Shown here piece after piece: positions 17,221-29,457 of a DNA stretch of 29,508 bases. The notes under the pieces were generated by a model. It worked only from the letters and a program-made list of their open reading frames with translations. It was not told where the DNA came from and did no database searches. The position numbers were made by a program, and so were the translations under genes. This DNA is from a virus. The stretch's first letter is position 1. Each line of letters opens with the position of its first letter. The stretch spans positions 1-29,508 of the IMG/VR virus record IMGVR_UViG_3300044695_001583. The stretch is one strand, 5' to 3'.

Positions 17221-17754
17221 ATGGAATGGCTTAAAATAGTAGCAAAAGACCACAAAGAATGGGTTAAACTCGTTCAAAGTTTCGGCGAAGACTTTTTCGC
17301 TGAGGACATAGTACAGGAATCTTACCTAAGATTACACAAATATTGTAAACCTGAAAACATTATTCAAGATGGGCAAATTAATAAAGGTTTTATGTATTTT
17401 GTGTTACGCAATCTTTACCTATTACATATTAAAAGCGAAAAGAAGAATGCAATGGTAAGCCTAAACGAGTTAGCCGTATTAAAAGACGAACCCACCAACC
17501 TAACTAAAGAAGAATCTTTTTCAGCATTACTTAGTAAGATACACGAAGAAGTGGATAGTTGGCACTGGTATGATAAACAATTATTCACAATCTACAAAGA
17601 CACGGATTTAAGCATACGGGATATAGCAAAAGAAACCACAATAAGTTCTAGTTCTATTTTCAACACGTTAAAAAACTGCAAAAGCAAAATAAAGGCGAAA
17701 TTTAAAGAGGACTACGAAGACTACAAAAACGAAGATTACGAATTAATTAAATAG
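17221..17754 (+). CDS. Phage-encoded RNA polymerase sigma factor (sigma-70 / ECF-like)
   Basis: A 177-residue protein. A region 2 pattern lies at about 25-75 (FFAEDIVQESYLRLHKY, then FMYFVLRNLYLLHIKSEKK), and a region 4 helix-turn-helix at about 118-160 (LSIRDIAKETTISSSSIFNTLKNCKSKIK), joined by an acidic linker. Regions 1 and 3 are absent, as in small ECF-type factors. It would redirect host RNA polymerase to phage promoters. Being first in the block that leads into packaging and virion genes, it probably turns on late transcription. Its own promoter is of host type (17173). The acidic tail (EDYEDYKNEDYELIK) may bind polymerase. Confidence 0.85.
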   Translation: MEWLKIVAKDHKEWVKLVQSFGEDFFAEDIVQESYLRLHKYCKPENIIQDGQINKGFMYFVLRNLYLLHIKSEKKNAMVSLNELAVLKDEPTNLTKEESFSALLSKIHEEVDSWHWYDKQLFTIYKDTDLSIRDIAKETTISSSSIFNTLKNCKSKIKAKFKEDYEDYKNEDYELIK

Positions 17755-18896: not shown

Positions 18897-19320
18897 AATA
18901 GATAGCCCCGAACACCTTTGGGAATTATTTAGGGATTATAAAAGCCAAGTAAAAAACAACCCTATCTTAAAACATACTTTTGTAGGTAAGGAAGGTAGAA
19001 GCGAATATAGCGAACTCGAACGACCTTTAACCATAGAAGGCTTCGAATGTTATTGCGCAGACTTAGGAATAATTCAAGACCTATCTAATTATTTTGCGAA
19101 TTCGAATAATAGATATAAACGCTTTTCAACTATCATTACGCGCATACGTAAGGAAGTACGCACCGACCAAATCGGCGGGGGTATGGCGGGAATCTATAAT
19201 TCAAGCATAACCGCACGATTAAACAACCTAGTCGAAAAGAAAGAAATTACAAACGTAGAACAACCACTATTTACCGATGTTTCGGAAAACGACGGCGATA
19301 AACAAAATACTGAGTCTTAA
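18880..19320 (+). CDS. terS: Terminase small subunit
   Basis: A 146-residue protein starting MGRPNKIDSPEHLWELFRDY. It matches the Bacteroidota small-terminase pattern (YKSQVKNNPILKHTFVGKEG, then ERPLTIEGFECYCADLGI), in which an N-terminal helix-turn-helix selects phage DNA for cutting and a helical body forms a ring. The frame is open to a TTG at 18847, but the ATG at 18880 gives the expected MGRPNK start. It overlaps the large subunit by 44 bases, a strong sign of coupled translation. Confidence 0.85.
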   Translation: MGRPNKIDSPEHLWELFRDYKSQVKNNPILKHTFVGKEGRSEYSELERPLTIEGFECYCADLGIIQDLSNYFANSNNRYKRFSTIITRIRKEVRTDQIGGGMAGIYNSSITARLNNLVEKKEITNVEQPLFTDVSENDGDKQNTES

Positions 19321-20437
19321 AAAACGTGTTAAGATTATTCAAGGTGGAACTTCGGCGGGTAAGACGTTTGGGATTATTCCTGTATTAATTGACAAGGCAG
19401 CGCGACACGAAGGAATAGAAATAAGCGTAGTAGCGGAAACGATACCGCATTTAAGAAGGGGCGCATTAAAGGACTTCCTAAAGATAATGAAGTGGACGGG
19501 TAGATTCTTTGAAGACAGGTTTAATAAGTCGTTACTCCGTTATGAGTTCGCAAATGGTTCGGTAATAGAATTCTTTTCCGCAGATGATTCGAGTAAACTA
19601 CGTGGAGCAAGGCGCGATATTCTTTATATAAACGAATGTAATAACGTTACCTTTGATTCTTATAATGAGTTGGCTATACGAACACGGAAGGAAGTTTATT
19701 TAGATTTCAACCCCGCTAACGAATTTTGGGTACACAAAGAATTAAAGAACGAACCCGATTCGGACTTTCTTATTTTAACTTACAAAGATAACGAAGCCTT
19801 AGACCAATCAATTATAGACCAAATCGAAAAGAACAAAGAGAAGGCTAAGACAAGTTCTTATTGGGCTAACTGGTGGAAGGTTTACGGAGAAGGTCAATTA
19901 GGAATGCTCGAAGGGGTAGTGTTCTCAAATTGGAAAACTATTGACACGATACCACAGGAAGCAAAGTTAATCGGAATAGGACTAGACTTTGGATATACGA
20001 ACGACCCGACCGCGATAATAGAAATATACAATTACAACGGGCAACGAATAGTTAACGAAGTAGCCTACCAAACAGGATTACTAAATAGCGATATCGCGAA
20101 ACTTCTACCTAAACACGTAATAGTATACGCGGATTCTTCCGAGCCCAAATCAATCGACGAAATTAAACGCCACGGGATAACGATTAAAGGAGTAACCAAA
20201 GGTAAGGATTCAATAAACTACGGAATAGATGTTATGCAGCGTAACGAATACTTAGTTACTTCGAACAGCGGTAATTTGATTAAAGAATTACGCGCGTATG
20301 TTTGGGATACCGACAAACAAGGCAACCGACTAAACAAGCCTATTGATTTTAATAACCACGCTATCGACGCTTTTCGTTATCACGAAATGGAAACCCTAGG
20401 GATAGGCTCAAACTACGGAAGGTATGCAATACGATAG
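19277..20437 (+). CDS. terL: Terminase large subunit (packaging ATPase and nuclease)
   Basis: A 386-residue motor that pumps DNA into the prohead and cuts concatemers. The ATPase shows Walker A GGTSAGKT (23-30), Walker B DILYINE (114-120, catalytic Glu120) and the coupling motif YLDFNP (141-146). The RNase H-like nuclease shows GLDFGYTNDP (Asp237), VIVYADSSEP (Asp286) and NHAIDAFRYHE (Asp364), the three metal-binding acids. Length is at the short end for the family but both domains are complete. It overlaps the small subunit by 44 bases and the next small gene by 14. Confidence 0.95.
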   Translation: MFRKTTAINKILSLKKRVKIIQGGTSAGKTFGIIPVLIDKAARHEGIEISVVAETIPHLRRGALKDFLKIMKWTGRFFEDRFNKSLLRYEFANGSVIEFFSADDSSKLRGARRDILYINECNNVTFDSYNELAIRTRKEVYLDFNPANEFWVHKELKNEPDSDFLILTYKDNEALDQSIIDQIEKNKEKAKTSSYWANWWKVYGEGQLGMLEGVVFSNWKTIDTIPQEAKLIGIGLDFGYTNDPTAIIEIYNYNGQRIVNEVAYQTGLLNSDIAKLLPKHVIVYADSSEPKSIDEIKRHGITIKGVTKGKDSINYGIDVMQRNEYLVTSNSGNLIKELRAYVWDTDKQGNRLNKPIDFNNHAIDAFRYHEMETLGIGSNYGRYAIR

Positions 20438-20616: not shown

Positions 20617-21321
20617 ATGAAGTTAGAAATAAACGTTCCAAGTTCAATTAACGAAATACCTTTAGTTAACTATCAAAAGTTTCTGAAGTTGCAACAAAGT
20701 TCCAACGACGAAGAATTTATAGCTCAAAAAATGATTGAAATATTTTGTGGTATTCAATTAAAGGACGTTGTTAAAATGAAACTAATAAGCGTTAACGAAT
20801 TAATACTACACTTTACAAATATATTCGCAGAAAAACCAACTTTTAAACCAACGTTTAAGATTGGCGAAATTGAATTCGGGTTTATTACCGACCTAGAAAA
20901 TATTAGTTTTGGGGAATACGTAGACTTAGATAATTACTTAGCGAAGTGGGACGATTTCCACAAAGCAATGGCGGTAATGTACCGACCTATTAAAATACGG
21001 AATAAAGATAAATACGAAATAATCGAATACACAGGAGCAAGCGAATACGCGGAACTAATGAAGTACGCGCCAATGGACGTAGCAATATCCGCTTCGGTTT
21101 TTTTTTGGACTTTAGGAAGCGAGTTGTTAAACGCTACCCTAAACTATTTGGAGACGCAGTTAAAGGCGATGAGCAAGAACGAACAAGCGACTTTAGCGCG
21201 CGAACTCAATTCGGGAAAAAGTGGGGGTGGTATAGCTCAATCTATGGACTTGCTAAAGGAGACCTTACAAAGTACGACGAAGTTGTTAAATACGGGTTAT
21301 ATAAATGTCTCACCTATTTAA
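20617..21321 (+). CDS. Tail assembly chaperone, short (G-like) form
   Basis: A 234-residue protein starting MKLEINVPSSINEIPLVNYQ. The N-terminal part (PLVNYQKFLKLQQSSNDEEFIAQKMIEIFCGI) and the centre (FGEYVDLDNYLAKWDDFHKAMAVMYRPI) match tail assembly chaperones of Bacteroidota siphoviruses, which coat the tape measure protein before the tube forms around it. After residue 163 the in-frame tail continues for 71 residues. At that point a T9 run offers a -1 shift into a second frame, giving a longer form. It is the first tail-module gene, 10 bases after the previous stop. Confidence 0.8.
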   Translation: MKLEINVPSSINEIPLVNYQKFLKLQQSSNDEEFIAQKMIEIFCGIQLKDVVKMKLISVNELILHFTNIFAEKPTFKPTFKIGEIEFGFITDLENISFGEYVDLDNYLAKWDDFHKAMAVMYRPIKIRNKDKYEIIEYTGASEYAELMKYAPMDVAISASVFFWTLGSELLNATLNYLETQLKAMSKNEQATLARELNSGKSGGGIAQSMDLLKETLQSTTKLLNTGYINVSPI

Positions 21322-21380
21322 CGTTTGAACAGGAAAAGAACGAAATCGAAATAATGGAAATTAAAAAGAGCTACAAATGA
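20617..21380 (+). CDS. Tail assembly chaperone, long (GT-like) frameshift form
   Basis: A -1 ribosomal shift on the T9 run (21098-21106) joins residues 1-163 of the chaperone to the 91-codon frame 21105-21380, giving about 254 residues. The shifted part holds GKKWGWYSSIYGLAKGDLT and VVKYGLYKCLTYLTFEQEKN, the expected T-part pattern of lambda-like GT proteins (GWYSxxYxLA, then a LTxLxxExxK helix). That frame has no good start of its own, only a TTG inside the slip site. Its TGA overlaps the ATG of the next gene (ATGA at 21377), the overlap style used throughout the genome. The long form normally recruits tail tube subunits. Confidence 0.82.
21098..21143 (+). promoter_or_regulatory. Programmed -1 frameshift signal (T9 run, spacer, stem-loop)
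   Basis: The nine T at 21098-21106 provide the heptamer T TTT TTT (21099-21105) in the zero frame. After a 5-base spacer a stem-loop follows: TTTAGG (21111-21116) with CCTAAA (21138-21143), and AGCG (21118-21121) with CGCT (21132-21135), giving ten base pairs with a small internal loop and a 10-base loop. Slippery run, spacer length and hairpin fit the classic stimulatory arrangement. Confidence 0.82.
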
Positions 21381-21832
21381 ACGGATACTATTCTTTATTA
21401 GATGAACTTAGAACCCACTTTAACGCGGATGCGTTGGTTAACACCGTTTCCCAAGGTTCAATTTTTAACGTGGATTTAGGTAAGCAAACTATATTTCCTT
21501 TGGTTCACATAATGGTTAATCAGGTTACTTTTAACGATAACGTAATGACCGCTAACGTTACTTTAATGGCTATGGATAACGTAAGCCAACGAAAAGAAGA
21601 AGCGCCCGACTCGTTCGAAACAGCGGATAACGAAATAGACGTTTTGAATACGCAACTTGCAATATTAAACCGAGCGTTTGAAATGCTTAAACACGGGAAT
21701 ATATGGGATAACCTTTACCAGTTAAACGGAGCGCCAACGTGCGAACCATTTATAGAACGCTTTGAAAATTACTTAGCAGGTTGGGGGATGACCTTTGACG
21801 TAGATTTTCCAAACGATATGACACGTTGTTAA
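21377..21832 (+). CDS. Tail completion / terminator-like protein
   Basis: A 151-residue protein starting MNGYYSLLDELRTHFNADAL. It has a helix-then-beta layout (TIFPLVHIMVNQVTFNDNVMTANVTLMAMDNV) as in tail terminator or minor tail proteins that cap the tube, and a C-terminal LAGWGMTFDVDFPNDM segment. I associate it with proteins next to the chaperone in Bacteroidota siphoviruses. Its start overlaps the long chaperone form by ATGA, and the next gene begins 1 base after its stop. The exact role is inferred. Confidence 0.55.
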   Translation: MNGYYSLLDELRTHFNADALVNTVSQGSIFNVDLGKQTIFPLVHIMVNQVTFNDNVMTANVTLMAMDNVSQRKEEAPDSFETADNEIDVLNTQLAILNRAFEMLKHGNIWDNLYQLNGAPTCEPFIERFENYLAGWGMTFDVDFPNDMTRC

Positions 21833-25865: not shown

Positions 25866-26047
25866 GTTATATAAATCAAATAGTGCAACTATTACAAGTT
25901 GCGGAATTCTTAGGCGAACACGAATATATTGAAATAGCAAAAGGTAAATACAAACTAAACGATAAAATTAAACCAGCGTACAAACAAATGCTACGCGAGT
26001 TATATATAAAAAAACTAAATAGAAATGTCGGAAAAACGAACAATTGA
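25862..26047 (+). CDS. Small hypothetical tail-region protein
   Basis: A 61-residue basic helical protein starting MSYINQIVQLLQVAEFLGEH, ending in a Lys/Arg/Asn-rich tail. It overlaps the large tail protein by ATGA and reaches 23 bases into the tape measure gene. It might be a tape measure-associated factor, but only position supports that. Confidence 0.55.
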   Translation: MSYINQIVQLLQVAEFLGEHEYIEIAKGKYKLNDKIKPAYKQMLRELYIKKLNRNVGKTNN

Positions 26048-28466
26048 ACTTGAAATAGTAGACAACGTAAAATCTTTAAAGTCTCAATATAAAGATGCGG
26101 TTGCGGAATTACAAAAGGTAAGTGCCGCATACGGAGAAACGAGCGACGAAGCTATAAAAGCAGCAAAAAGCGCCGCGGATTTAAAAGACCAAATCGGATT
26201 TACTAACGATTTAGTTTCTTCCTTTAACCCCGACGCTAAATTTGATTCATTAACGAAATCTTTTGGCGGGGTTCTAGACGGATTCCAAGCGGTTGAAGGC
26301 GGGTTAGGTTTACTCGGTATTGAAAGCGAAGGAGTTCAACAGGCTATGTTACGCGTTCAAAGCGCTATGGCGTTTTCCCAAGGTTTACAGGGGGTAATGG
26401 AAGCCAAAGATTCATTTAAGCAATTAGGCGCAAATATTAAAGACGTTTATTTACAAATCTTTAAAAAGAACGCGGCAACGGCGGCGGGTTCGGCAGTCGA
26501 TAAAGCGAGCGCAGTTACAACGGGAGCGCAGGCGGTTGCTTCAACGGGTTTGGCAACGGCTCAAACAGGCGTAGCGGTTTCGACAAACGTAGCAAGCACT
26601 TCAATGAAATTATTTCGTATTGCTTTAATCGCTACGGGAATAGGCGCTATCGTTATATTACTAGTATTACTTATTACAAACTTTGACAAGGTATCCGCCG
26701 CGGTAATGTGGGCGCGTGAAAAGTTCGAAAAATTAGGAACGGGGGTTAAGATAGCTATTGCGATAATGTTTCCGTTTATTGGTATTATTTACGGAGTAGT
26801 TAAAGCGCTCGAAGCAATGGGGTTCGTTGACGATGTAAAGACCGCTAAACTAAAAAAGAACGCCGAAGCGCACACGGAAGCCGTTGTAAAATCTGCGGAT
26901 AAACGAGCAGCGGCAATTAAAAAAGAACAAACCCAAAACGATTTAAAAGCGCAACGCGAAATAGATTTAGCGAAGGCTTCGGGAAAAGCAACCTACGAAA
27001 TGGAGTTATCTAAATCAAAATCGCACCTTGCAAGTGGGCGAATTTATTTAGAAGTACAAAAAGCTAAAATGAAGGCAATCCAAGCCGAAATAGATTTATT
27101 ATTAGCAACAGAAGACCAAGATTCGGATAGGTATAAAGCGTTAAAAAAACGAGCGGAAGGAGTTCGTAAAATAATGGACGAGCAATACAAAGACAACGTA
27201 GACACGAACCAAGCCATTAAATTAATGGAAGCCGCACACCAAAAGGAAATGGCGGACAAGGCTAAGGCAGCGGGGGATAAAGCTAAACAAGCCGCAGACC
27301 AAAACCGCAAATCATATATAGATAACCTAAAGAAACAAAACGAAGACCAAGCGAAGTTAGCAGAAGAAGCCGAAAACCAAAAACTTGCGTTAATGGAAGA
27401 CGGAATAGACAAAGAAAAGGCGCTTCGACAAGACGCGTTTAACGACTATCGCGACAACTTTTTAAAAGAACGTACTCAGGAAGAACAAGCCGCGTTAGAT
27501 AAACAATTTGCAGACGGTAAAATAAGCCGCGAACAATATAACAAAGCGGTAGAAGAATTAAGAATAAACGCGGAAACTAAACTAACGGAGCAAGAACGCG
27601 CAATACTTTTAGGAGCTAAAGACATTTTGAACAAAGACTTGTTAGCAATCGACGACAAGCACAACGCCGAAGTATTAAAACGTACGGAAGATTTTCAAAA
27701 GAAAATGAAGGAAGACGAAAAGAAACGGCAAGAAGATTTTTTAAACCAAGTTGAATCTTTAGAAGAACAAAACTACCAAGCAAGTTTAAGCGACCAAGCC
27801 CGTGAACTTTATTTACTAGAAGAAAAGTACGCGGAAATGGAGCGATTAGCAAAAGGCAACGCGGACGCAGAAAAAACAATAGCCGAAGCCAAAGGACGCG
27901 ATAAAGCAGATATAGATAAAAAATACGAAGAAGAAGAAGCGGCAAGAAAAACGGCAGCTATACAACGCAACGCGGATTTAGCAAAGTCGGGGTTAACTAT
28001 GATTTCAGACCTTACGGAGTTGTTTGGTAAGAAAGGAGAAAAGCAAGCGCGTAAAGCCTTCCAAGTTAAAAAGGCGGCAAGTATAGCCAGCGCGTTAATA
28101 GACACCTTCCTAAGTGCGCGTTCGGCTTATTATTCGCAATTTACACCTATTCCCGACCCAAGTTCCCCCGTTCGTGGTGGTATCGCGGCGGGTATTGCCG
28201 TTGCAAGTGGTTTAATCGGAGTAGGTAAAATAGCTTCGCAAAAGTTTGAAGGCGGCGCGGTTACAGGCGGCGGGGATACGGGCGGTGGTGATGTCGGCGG
28301 CGGCGGTGGTGGTATGAAAGCGCCTTCGTTTAATGTTGTGGGTAATAACGGGTTAAACCAATTAGCGCAATTACAACAACAACCTACGCAAGCCTACGTA
28401 GTTAGCGGGCAAGTTAGCAGCGCCCAAAGTTTAGATAGAAACCGCGTACAAAACGCAACACTTTAA
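26025..28466 (+). CDS. Tape measure protein
   Basis: An 813-residue protein that sets tail length and is ejected into the host with the DNA. It begins as helical repeats (about 1-190), has two hydrophobic segments (about 197-219 and 241-262, LIATGIGAIVILLVLLITNF and VKIAIAIMFPFIGIIYGVV) that may insert in the host inner membrane, then a very long charged coiled coil (about 280-690, Lys/Glu/Ala/Gln), and a Gly-rich C-terminus (about 755-770). By the usual ~1.5 Å per residue the tail would be roughly 120 nm, a rough estimate only. No lysozyme or peptidase domain is visible. Reverse-strand frames over it are shadows of the skewed codon use. Confidence 0.9.
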   Translation: MSEKRTIELEIVDNVKSLKSQYKDAVAELQKVSAAYGETSDEAIKAAKSAADLKDQIGFTNDLVSSFNPDAKFDSLTKSFGGVLDGFQAVEGGLGLLGIESEGVQQAMLRVQSAMAFSQGLQGVMEAKDSFKQLGANIKDVYLQIFKKNAATAAGSAVDKASAVTTGAQAVASTGLATAQTGVAVSTNVASTSMKLFRIALIATGIGAIVILLVLLITNFDKVSAAVMWAREKFEKLGTGVKIAIAIMFPFIGIIYGVVKALEAMGFVDDVKTAKLKKNAEAHTEAVVKSADKRAAAIKKEQTQNDLKAQREIDLAKASGKATYEMELSKSKSHLASGRIYLEVQKAKMKAIQAEIDLLLATEDQDSDRYKALKKRAEGVRKIMDEQYKDNVDTNQAIKLMEAAHQKEMADKAKAAGDKAKQAADQNRKSYIDNLKKQNEDQAKLAEEAENQKLALMEDGIDKEKALRQDAFNDYRDNFLKERTQEEQAALDKQFADGKISREQYNKAVEELRINAETKLTEQERAILLGAKDILNKDLLAIDDKHNAEVLKRTEDFQKKMKEDEKKRQEDFLNQVESLEEQNYQASLSDQARELYLLEEKYAEMERLAKGNADAEKTIAEAKGRDKADIDKKYEEEEAARKTAAIQRNADLAKSGLTMISDLTELFGKKGEKQARKAFQVKKAASIASALIDTFLSARSAYYSQFTPIPDPSSPVRGGIAAGIAVASGLIGVGKIASQKFEGGAVTGGGDTGGGDVGGGGGGMKAPSFNVVGNNGLNQLAQLQQQPTQAYVVSGQVSSAQSLDRNRVQNATL

Positions 28467-28487: not shown

Positions 28488-29069
28488 ATGAGAATTATCG
28501 AACTGATTATAGACGAAAACGACGAACAAAGCGGAATAGACGCGGTAAGCGTTGTAAAATCCCCTGCAATCGAAGAAAACTTTATAGCGTTAAATAAACA
28601 CGAAATAGAACTCAAAGAAGTTGACACGGAAAAACGTATTTTAATGGGCGCGGCGTTAGTTCCGAATAAGCAAATTTACCGACGCAACGGTAAGAACGAA
28701 GAATACTATATTTATTTTAGTTCGGACACGATTAGAAAAGCAAGTGAATTATTTTTAATGCGTTCAAACCAAAACAACGCTACCTACGAACACGAAAAAA
28801 AGTTAAAGGGTTTAAGCGTAGTTGAAAGTTGGATAATAGAAGACGAAAACAAGGACAAATCAAACCTTTACGGATTCGACTTACCAAAAGGTACTTGGAT
28901 GATTTCAATGAAGGTAAATAACGACGAAGTTTGGAACGATGTTAAAGCAGGCAAAATAAAAGGCTTTTCTATAGAAGGTTACTTTGCGGATAAATTTGAA
29001 ATGAGCGCCGAAGAACACGAAGCCAACGAAGTGATAAACGAACTTAAAAAACTATTAAACATAAAATAA
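28488..29069 (+). CDS. XkdF-like prohead protease
   Basis: A 193-residue protein matching the XkdF-type putative phage serine protease family. It starts MRIIELIIDENDEQSGIDAV. VSVVKSPAIEENFIALNKHEIEL (about 21-43) and LMGAALVPNKQIYRR (about 52-66) are the family N-terminal part. Later elements are NATYEHEKKLKGLSVVESWI (candidate catalytic His within TYEHE), KGTWMISMKVNNDEVWNDVKAGKIKGFSIEGYF (about 143-175, with the serine of GFSIEG). It would cut scaffold or capsid ends during head maturation. It sits 21 bases after the tape measure and 1 base before the coiled-coil gene. Confidence 0.8.
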   Translation: MRIIELIIDENDEQSGIDAVSVVKSPAIEENFIALNKHEIELKEVDTEKRILMGAALVPNKQIYRRNGKNEEYYIYFSSDTIRKASELFLMRSNQNNATYEHEKKLKGLSVVESWIIEDENKDKSNLYGFDLPKGTWMISMKVNNDEVWNDVKAGKIKGFSIEGYFADKFEMSAEEHEANEVINELKKLLNIK

Positions 29070-29070
29070 A

Positions 29071-29457
29071 ATGAGTAACTTAAACAACATCCTAAACAAA
29101 ATAGGAAAAATCGAAGCAATCCGCGAAACTAATCTAGGTAAACACGAAATCGAATTATCGGATTACGTTGAAGTTGTAGGCGCTTATAATTCTTTAGAAA
29201 AAAATTACAATACTATATTAAAACAAATTTCAGGCGCTAAGAGTGAATTAAAAAAAGCTATTTCATTAATACAAGAACAACAAAATTTAACTAATAATTT
29301 TAATTCTAATTTATTAGATTTTGAAAAAAAAGCAAAAGATTTAGGAATAGATTGGAAAAACGCGATGCCCGAATTTATTAGATATCAAAATGCGGTTGAG
29401 AAACAATATGCGCCTAAGAATTTTAGTGATGTTATTAACGCATACGATAATTTATAA
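29071..29457 (+). CDS. Coiled-coil head-region protein, paralogue of 320-700
   Basis: A 128-residue helical protein starting MSNLNNILNKIGKIEAIRET. It shares the LGxHExELS motif (near 22-30) and overall layout with the product of 320-700, and KHEIEL is also present in the protease immediately upstream. A long coiled coil covers about 40-100, and the end (YAPKNFSDVINAYDNL) is less charged. The genomic pair and the shared motif suggest a head-assembly role, perhaps as substrate or partner of the protease. The last 76 bases are those seen again at 1-76. Confidence 0.72.
   Translation: MSNLNNILNKIGKIEAIRETNLGKHEIELSDYVEVVGAYNSLEKNYNTILKQISGAKSELKKAISLIQEQQNLTNNFNSNLLDFEKKAKDLGIDWKNAMPEFIRYQNAVEKQYAPKNFSDVINAYDNL

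Follow-up and report, generated by a model that had tools for sequence, protein, structure and literature searches.

A large family of aquatic tailed phages, probably infecting mainly Bacteroidota, appears on balance to make a putative tail-chaperone pair of the G/GT type by slippage of RNA polymerase on an obligate run of at least nine Ts, with the ratio of the two products set at the mRNA level and not at the ribosome. We base this reading on comparative sequence analysis of one such gene, which lies in a single virus record of 29,508 bases (the window; Table 1). The comparison of relatives confirms that the gene encodes two products, a G-like protein and a longer fusion with a T-like domain read from the −1 frame, and that both G and T are conserved. 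As for how the second frame is reached, programmed transcriptional slippage on U9 emerges as the most likely mechanism, with −1 ribosomal frameshifting as its main rival.

Table 1. Features of the G/GT-like locus and its surroundings (positions are those of the window)
Feature	Position	Strand	Details
Window			Single virus record, 29,508 bases
Terminase large subunit	19277..20437	+	Upstream context
G-like 0-frame ORF	20617..21321	+	234 aa; residues 1-163 common to fusion product
T9 homopolymer, slip site	21098-21106	+	Codons GTT TTT TTT TGG in ORF 20617-21321
T_TTT_TTT heptamer	21099-21105	+	Inside T9, −1 slip phase
−1 frame, T-like domain	21105..21380	+	91 codons + stop TGA 21378-21380
Hairpin	21111..21143	+	Arms 21111-21116/21138-21143 and 21118-21121/21132-21135; spacer 5 nt
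+1-frame TAG	21113..21115	+	Third codon past slip; ends one-base-deletion products
Next gene	21377..21832	+	ATG overlaps −1 frame TGA; PHROG 30964, annotated unknown
Tail tape measure protein	26025..28466	+	Downstream context; phrog_1506, E 2.6e-7

Comparative evidence for two products from one gene

IMG/VR was searched with G and with T, together with a few MAG contigs and one cultured phage, and the loci counted are those in which profile searches located both G and T. At least 578 relatives of G were found in IMG/VR. No search filtered on the T run, and the one protein-level pattern that covered the site (FFYHLGND) did not force TTT. Because some contigs occur in more than one locus, 395 distinct regions serve as the count where regions are compared. 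All loci belong to one homologous family and are not independent, a relatedness that the parsimony counts given below address only in part.

We found that T lies in the −1 frame relative to G in 371 of 372 loci, and in the exception (L195, scored as "same frame") G is split into two frames upstream, with the slip-proximal piece again −1 to T. Among more distant loci, T was −1 in 162, and setting aside a suspect plasmid record among them (L384) leaves 161 further loci; T was +1 in two others (L383 and L385), both from one suspect plasmid record. The T run measured at least nine in all 532 loci (371 + 161), shorter runs being confined to the two suspect plasmid records. Taken together, these counts exceed what chance would give, which is not true of the T9 or the hairpin taken alone, and they bear out the 91-codon −1 frame that the initial annotation had described.

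Both domains show the marks of conserved proteins. G carries invariant RP and LG positions, and T opens with FRxR immediately past the slip, followed in order by WGWY, LAxGD and EKN. Among relatives, the 0-frame tail past the slip can be as short as 16 or as long as 84 codons, whereas T holds steady at 80-92; differences between relatives fall on 0-frame third positions before the slip and on T-frame third positions after it. Under synonymous recoding, a −1 frame open across the 71 shared codons has a probability of ~0.01. A +1-frame stop occurs at codon 3 or 4 in 239 of 250 relatives. The overlap between the −1 stop and the next gene's start, noted earlier for the window, is indeed there, and the same ATGA overlap recurs in 145 of 248 relatives.

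The fusion, made of residues 1-163 plus the 91-residue −1 frame, would measure ~254 aa. Its T-like domain is predicted to be helical (AlphaFold model, pLDDT 84). Among predicted viral proteins in BFVD, ten entries (226-267 aa) combine matches to the G model and to the T model in one chain, and we therefore regard the fusion as supported as a natural protein. The entries are A0A516L611, A0A516L5A8, A0A6J5N0W0, A0A6J5N3F3, A0A6J5SVK3, A0A6J5MY57, A0A6J7WDG4, A0A6J7WJY4, A0A6J7XA66 and A0A385E737; in some cases they may derive from long-read assemblies. Among Bacteroidota genomes, a match was present in 2 of 395, one of them the seed genome itself.

The same chains bear on whether T is instead a protein of its own, made by re-initiation or from an internal start with no frame transition. 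This is very improbable: besides the ten single-chain proteins, 240 of 250 regions hold no T-frame ATG between the slip and WGW, and conservation of the −1 frame begins right at the slip, with FRxR. Its one foothold is phage P12024S, whose annotation gives the T end an ORF of its own with an ATG overlapping the G stop, although the T9 and the −1 frame are present there too. The arrangement that the initial annotation had named as contrary to its proposal, with the two frames as distinct genes that each have a good start, was thus not found to be conserved among the relatives.

Length and conservation of the T run

The T9 of this genome proves nothing when considered alone, since a run of this length has a probability of 0.29 given the encoded V-F-F-W and this genome's codon usage. 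Its meaning comes from the relatives. In the 371 loci, run lengths were T9 (339), T10 (31) and T12 (1), and in the 161 further loci T9 (139), T10 (21) and T11 (1). Fewer than nine Ts were seen in none of the 395 distinct regions, although a −1 ribosomal heptamer needs only seven. T_TTT_TTT, already recognized in the window and correctly placed for a −1 shift, stands in phase in 395 of 395 regions, with no non-T heptamer seen.

On a tree of 393 tips, no change fell on the seven core positions (−1 to +5 of the run), 3 and 4 fell on the flanking run positions, and 47 on each of the bases that border the run. Wherever parsimony infers the loss of a flanking T, the loss is offset on the other side (7 of 7) and the run stays at nine or more. 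Specifically, the 3′ T is lost in L375, L387, L392 and L438, where the run starts one base earlier, and the 5′ T is lost in L442, L446 and L449, where the run extends 3′. Conserved residues in both frames around the site explain part of this conservation of the flanking Ts.

A more pointed comparison is offered by codon 163, where a third-base change of TTT to TTC alters neither protein as long as the −1 frame reads TTA or TTG; a TTC there would keep U_UUU_UUC as a slip heptamer. This change was found in 0 of 343 such cases (T in 343 of 343, 0 changes), whereas a matched doubly silent control site, T-frame codon 14, has 104 T, 83 C and 51 changes, and 35% of the Phe codons upstream in G are TTC.

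Long T runs are also strongly under-represented in the coding sequence of the window phage and its relatives, long A runs less so. Across 870 other genes of these loci, T≥9 runs numbered 2 against 30.6 ± 3.8 expected from synonymous shuffles, and A≥9 runs 17 against 62.9. T7 is avoided in every codon phase (observed/expected 14/41, 7/19 and 37/76), whereas A7 in slip phase is not (159 observed versus 144 expected). This pattern of avoidance is consistent with slippage that occurs in any frame and favors T, as reported for the E. coli RNA polymerase (PMC6260861), although replication errors could contribute to it as well.

Two database records depart from the rule of nine, and both contain a relative of the window phage twice in a "plasmid" of 66-67 kb. 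CP045836.1 (Lysinibacillus pakistanensis LZH-9; L383 and L385) has T8 in both copies, ~33 kb apart, and NZ_CP040811.1 (Escherichia fergusonii pEF06; L384) has T7 and a broken G; the flank of the slip site is common to the two, and the run length differs. Because the records disagree and the E. fergusonii one has a broken G, we treat T8 and T7 as probable homopolymer miscalls. The two-copy content, the disagreement and the broken G point to long-read assemblies, and both "plasmids" look like assembled phage DNA, perhaps contamination, not host plasmids.

These records also provide a reason to consider the T9 as a phase-variable DNA tract, in which T8 or T10 copies of the DNA would switch between G and GT. 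Replication readily slips on T9 tracts, and two records do hold T8 or T7. However, no contig (0) has G and T fused in one frame, and the deviating records look like one phage in two disagreeing plasmid assemblies, which leaves this reading scarcely credible.

The downstream hairpin

The initial annotation had presented a stem-loop, beginning 5 nt after the slip, as the last part of a complete frameshift signal, and had proposed RNA folding as a check. The stem-loop itself held up: it is the minimum-energy fold of the short segment, at −8.2 kcal/mol. However, its z-score of −1.2 to −1.4 is within chance (18-27 of 200 shuffles fold equally well), and when 46 upstream bases are added the predicted fold changes to another.

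Its role as part of the signal fared worse. Among the 26 distinct sequences of the window clade, pairing is kept in 92% of pair cells, and 11 sequences have all ten pairs; among 155 sequences from outside it, pairing is kept in 54% of cells, and 3 sequences have all ten pairs. Within the window clade no compensatory pair changes were seen, the changes being one-sided. Where the arms lie, both frames are conserved coding sequence, and the hairpin is probably a by-product of this double coding. Restricted to one clade, lacking covariation and disfavored by both folding z-scores and pair counts, the stem-loop is rejected as a stimulator.

Nor did we find a conserved downstream stimulator of any other kind: the hairpin is lost outside its clade, and the mean downstream z-scores of 60 representatives lie near 0 (−0.36 for 40 nt, −0.16 for 60 nt and −0.12 for 100 nt). 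Such stimulators are common in programmed −1 ribosomal frameshifting but not obligatory. Upstream, a conserved nascent-RNA hairpin of the kind that could aid transcriptional slippage was likewise absent (mean z −0.05), an Rfam search gave no match, and no terminator was found at the T9 on the coding strand.

Transcriptional slippage as the favored mechanism

Programmed −1 ribosomal frameshifting on U_UUU_UUU in the style of lambda G/GT, with or without a downstream hairpin, is a possible alternative, though a distinctly less probable one than slippage of the polymerase. The heptamer is in the correct phase, a hairpin is predicted in the window clade, and there is a lambda-type precedent, reviewed in PMC5009743. 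The direction of the shift is also uniform, which PMC3711429 takes, as a heuristic, as a sign of ribosomal shifting; the orthologues are −1 throughout, which is not the pattern that this heuristic assigns to transcriptional slippage, and we consider this the strongest counter-argument to our preferred mechanism. If G must exceed GT, however, selection would disfavor the opposite arrangement whichever model holds.

What ribosomal shifting leaves unexplained is the detail of the site, namely, the absence of runs of 7 or 8 Ts, the compensation of flanking-T losses and the lack of the doubly silent UUC. In E. coli, U_UU.C tetramers are better shifters than U_UU.U ones, and IS elements provide natural examples of U_UUU_UUC (PMC4066793). 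Among relatives using the ribosome, UUC or other efficient heptamers would be expected, though not as a defining feature; UUC was found in 0 of 343. U_UUU_UUU is itself only a modest shifter in E. coli according to PMC5009743, and the hairpin is neither conserved nor covarying.

Slippage of the RNA polymerase is favored because the run never falls below nine, flanking losses are offset, TTC is absent and T runs are avoided elsewhere, and also because the conserved downstream structure usual for ribosomal shifting is missing. Published work provides a fitting background. Tn with n > 8 is listed as a realignment motif (PMC3711429), nine As or Ts slip efficiently in vivo and the RNA-DNA hybrid spans 9-10 bp (PMC5009743), and poly(T) is preferred by the E. 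coli RNA polymerase (PMC6260861). The same enzyme is able to slip at 7 Ts (PMC6260861), and a sharp threshold of nine is therefore not to be expected from every polymerase.

In the proposed mechanism, some of the transcripts would arise by slippage of the host RNA polymerase on the T9, a run that corresponds in length to the RNA-DNA hybrid of 9-10 bp. One extra U (a U10 mRNA) would put T in frame with G and yield the fusion; a U9 (or U12) mRNA would yield G, and translation of a U8 (or U11) mRNA would end at the TAG in the third codon past the slip. If the pair acts as in lambda, G may bind the tape measure in many copies while the rarer GT recruits the tail-tube protein; in lambda-like pairs, neither protein is part of the virion. 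Both mechanisms could contribute, and some ribosomal shifting is plausible here, T_TTT_TTT being a known E. coli slip heptamer. A weak match of the ORF at 17221-17754 to RNA polymerase sigma factors (PHROG 1740 and 1190; E ~1e-3) was also observed, and a sigma-like protein would fit the use of the host polymerase.

The junction SASVFF-LDFR is predicted to be identical under both mechanisms, so that mass spectrometry of the fusion would show the fusion and not the mechanism, barring products with an added Phe. A single synonymous change, in contrast, separates the transcriptional from the ribosomal model. If polymerase slippage is indeed at work, the mRNA differs from its DNA template, a difference that would be visible in RNA-seq of infected cells or in aquatic metatranscriptomes. 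Annotation tools that seek a ribosomal heptamer plus stem-loop would misdescribe this G/GT-like family, whose members are now filed as hypothetical proteins.

Putative function and gene context

We consider the G/GT-like pair to be probably a tail assembly chaperone, on the basis of its two-product architecture, its structural-gene context and weak matches to PHROG 166 and to the folds of annotated chaperones. The PHROG 166 ("tail protein") matches reach E 0.0028 at best, BFVD fold matches to annotated chaperones have a probability of 0.35-0.60, and a distant fold match was obtained with Flavobacterium phage 6H. Searches of G and T against Pfam, NCBIfam and PDB sequences gave nothing credible, and a PDB fold search gave no match at E ≤ 0.001. 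Since no curated chaperone family was matched by either protein, we keep both "chaperone" and the "lambda-like T part" of the initial annotation as putative names: what stands of the latter is a conserved second domain fused to a G-like protein, with a tape measure gene downstream.

The frame transition could also be real and the protein pair something other than a tail chaperone, a rather unlikely reading that is compatible with either slip mechanism. In its favor, beyond the empty Pfam, NCBIfam and PDB searches, the G-like ORF matches PHROG 32199 (E 4e-12), a family annotated as of unknown function, and the gene adjoins the terminase several genes upstream of the tape measure. The two-product −1 architecture, the structural-gene context and the weak tail-protein and chaperone fold matches speak against it.

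The G/GT-like gene directly follows the terminase, with the tape measure ~4.6 kb and several genes downstream, unlike the lambda-type order. A position directly before the tape measure is typical for G/GT but not strictly defining. Because the gene lacks that position, we describe the putative chaperone as functioning in the manner of G/GT, without assigning it to that group.

Other genes of the window provided two further observations. The first and last larger ORFs (320-700 and 29071-29457) encode similar-looking proteins with NILxKI...E...LGxHExELS and are perhaps neighboring paralogues if the genome is circular. For the product of the ORF at 28488-29069 (193 aa), the matching PHROGs carry the names DNA methyltransferase and head maturation protease; its location close to the capsid genes makes protease seem the better name.

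Comparison with known systems

The phage G/GT ratio has been described in terms of ribosomal frameshifting (−1, −2 or +1). Transcription, to which the comparisons point here, would mean that a different machine can set the same protein ratio, as in the case of dnaX. In the open-access literature, to the extent that its text was available, we found no report of transcriptional slippage for a tail chaperone.

Like lambda gpG/gpGT, the present pair shares an N-terminal part, adds a C-terminal domain from the −1 frame and is encoded among phage structural genes (PMC5009743). Unlike lambda, where the second frame is reached by −1 ribosomal frameshifting, the slip here probably occurs in transcription, judging from the sequence comparisons; an invariant T≥9 homopolymer takes the place of a heptamer, the gene adjoins the terminase instead of directly preceding the tape measure, and no sequence relation was found between the two.

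The transcriptional precedents come from bacteria. In Shigella flexneri mxiE, as proposed here, one inserted U joins two overlapping ORFs into a longer product (PMC1088944), and the U run is likewise a T9 (PMC6260861); mxiE, however, encodes a transcription activator of a secretion system, whereas the gene studied here encodes a phage protein that is probably functional in its unslipped form too. Thermus thermophilus dnaX (A9) also uses a nine-base homopolymer to obtain two functional proteins from one gene (PMC1088944 and PMC5009743), except that slippage gives the shorter product there and would give the longer one here.

Among cultured phages, the Nonlabens (Persicivirga) phages P12024S and P12024L are relatives. 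Their G is ~24% identical, and their annotation lists two hypothetical proteins and mentions no frameshift, yet these relatives have the same gene order, the T9 and T in the −1 frame.
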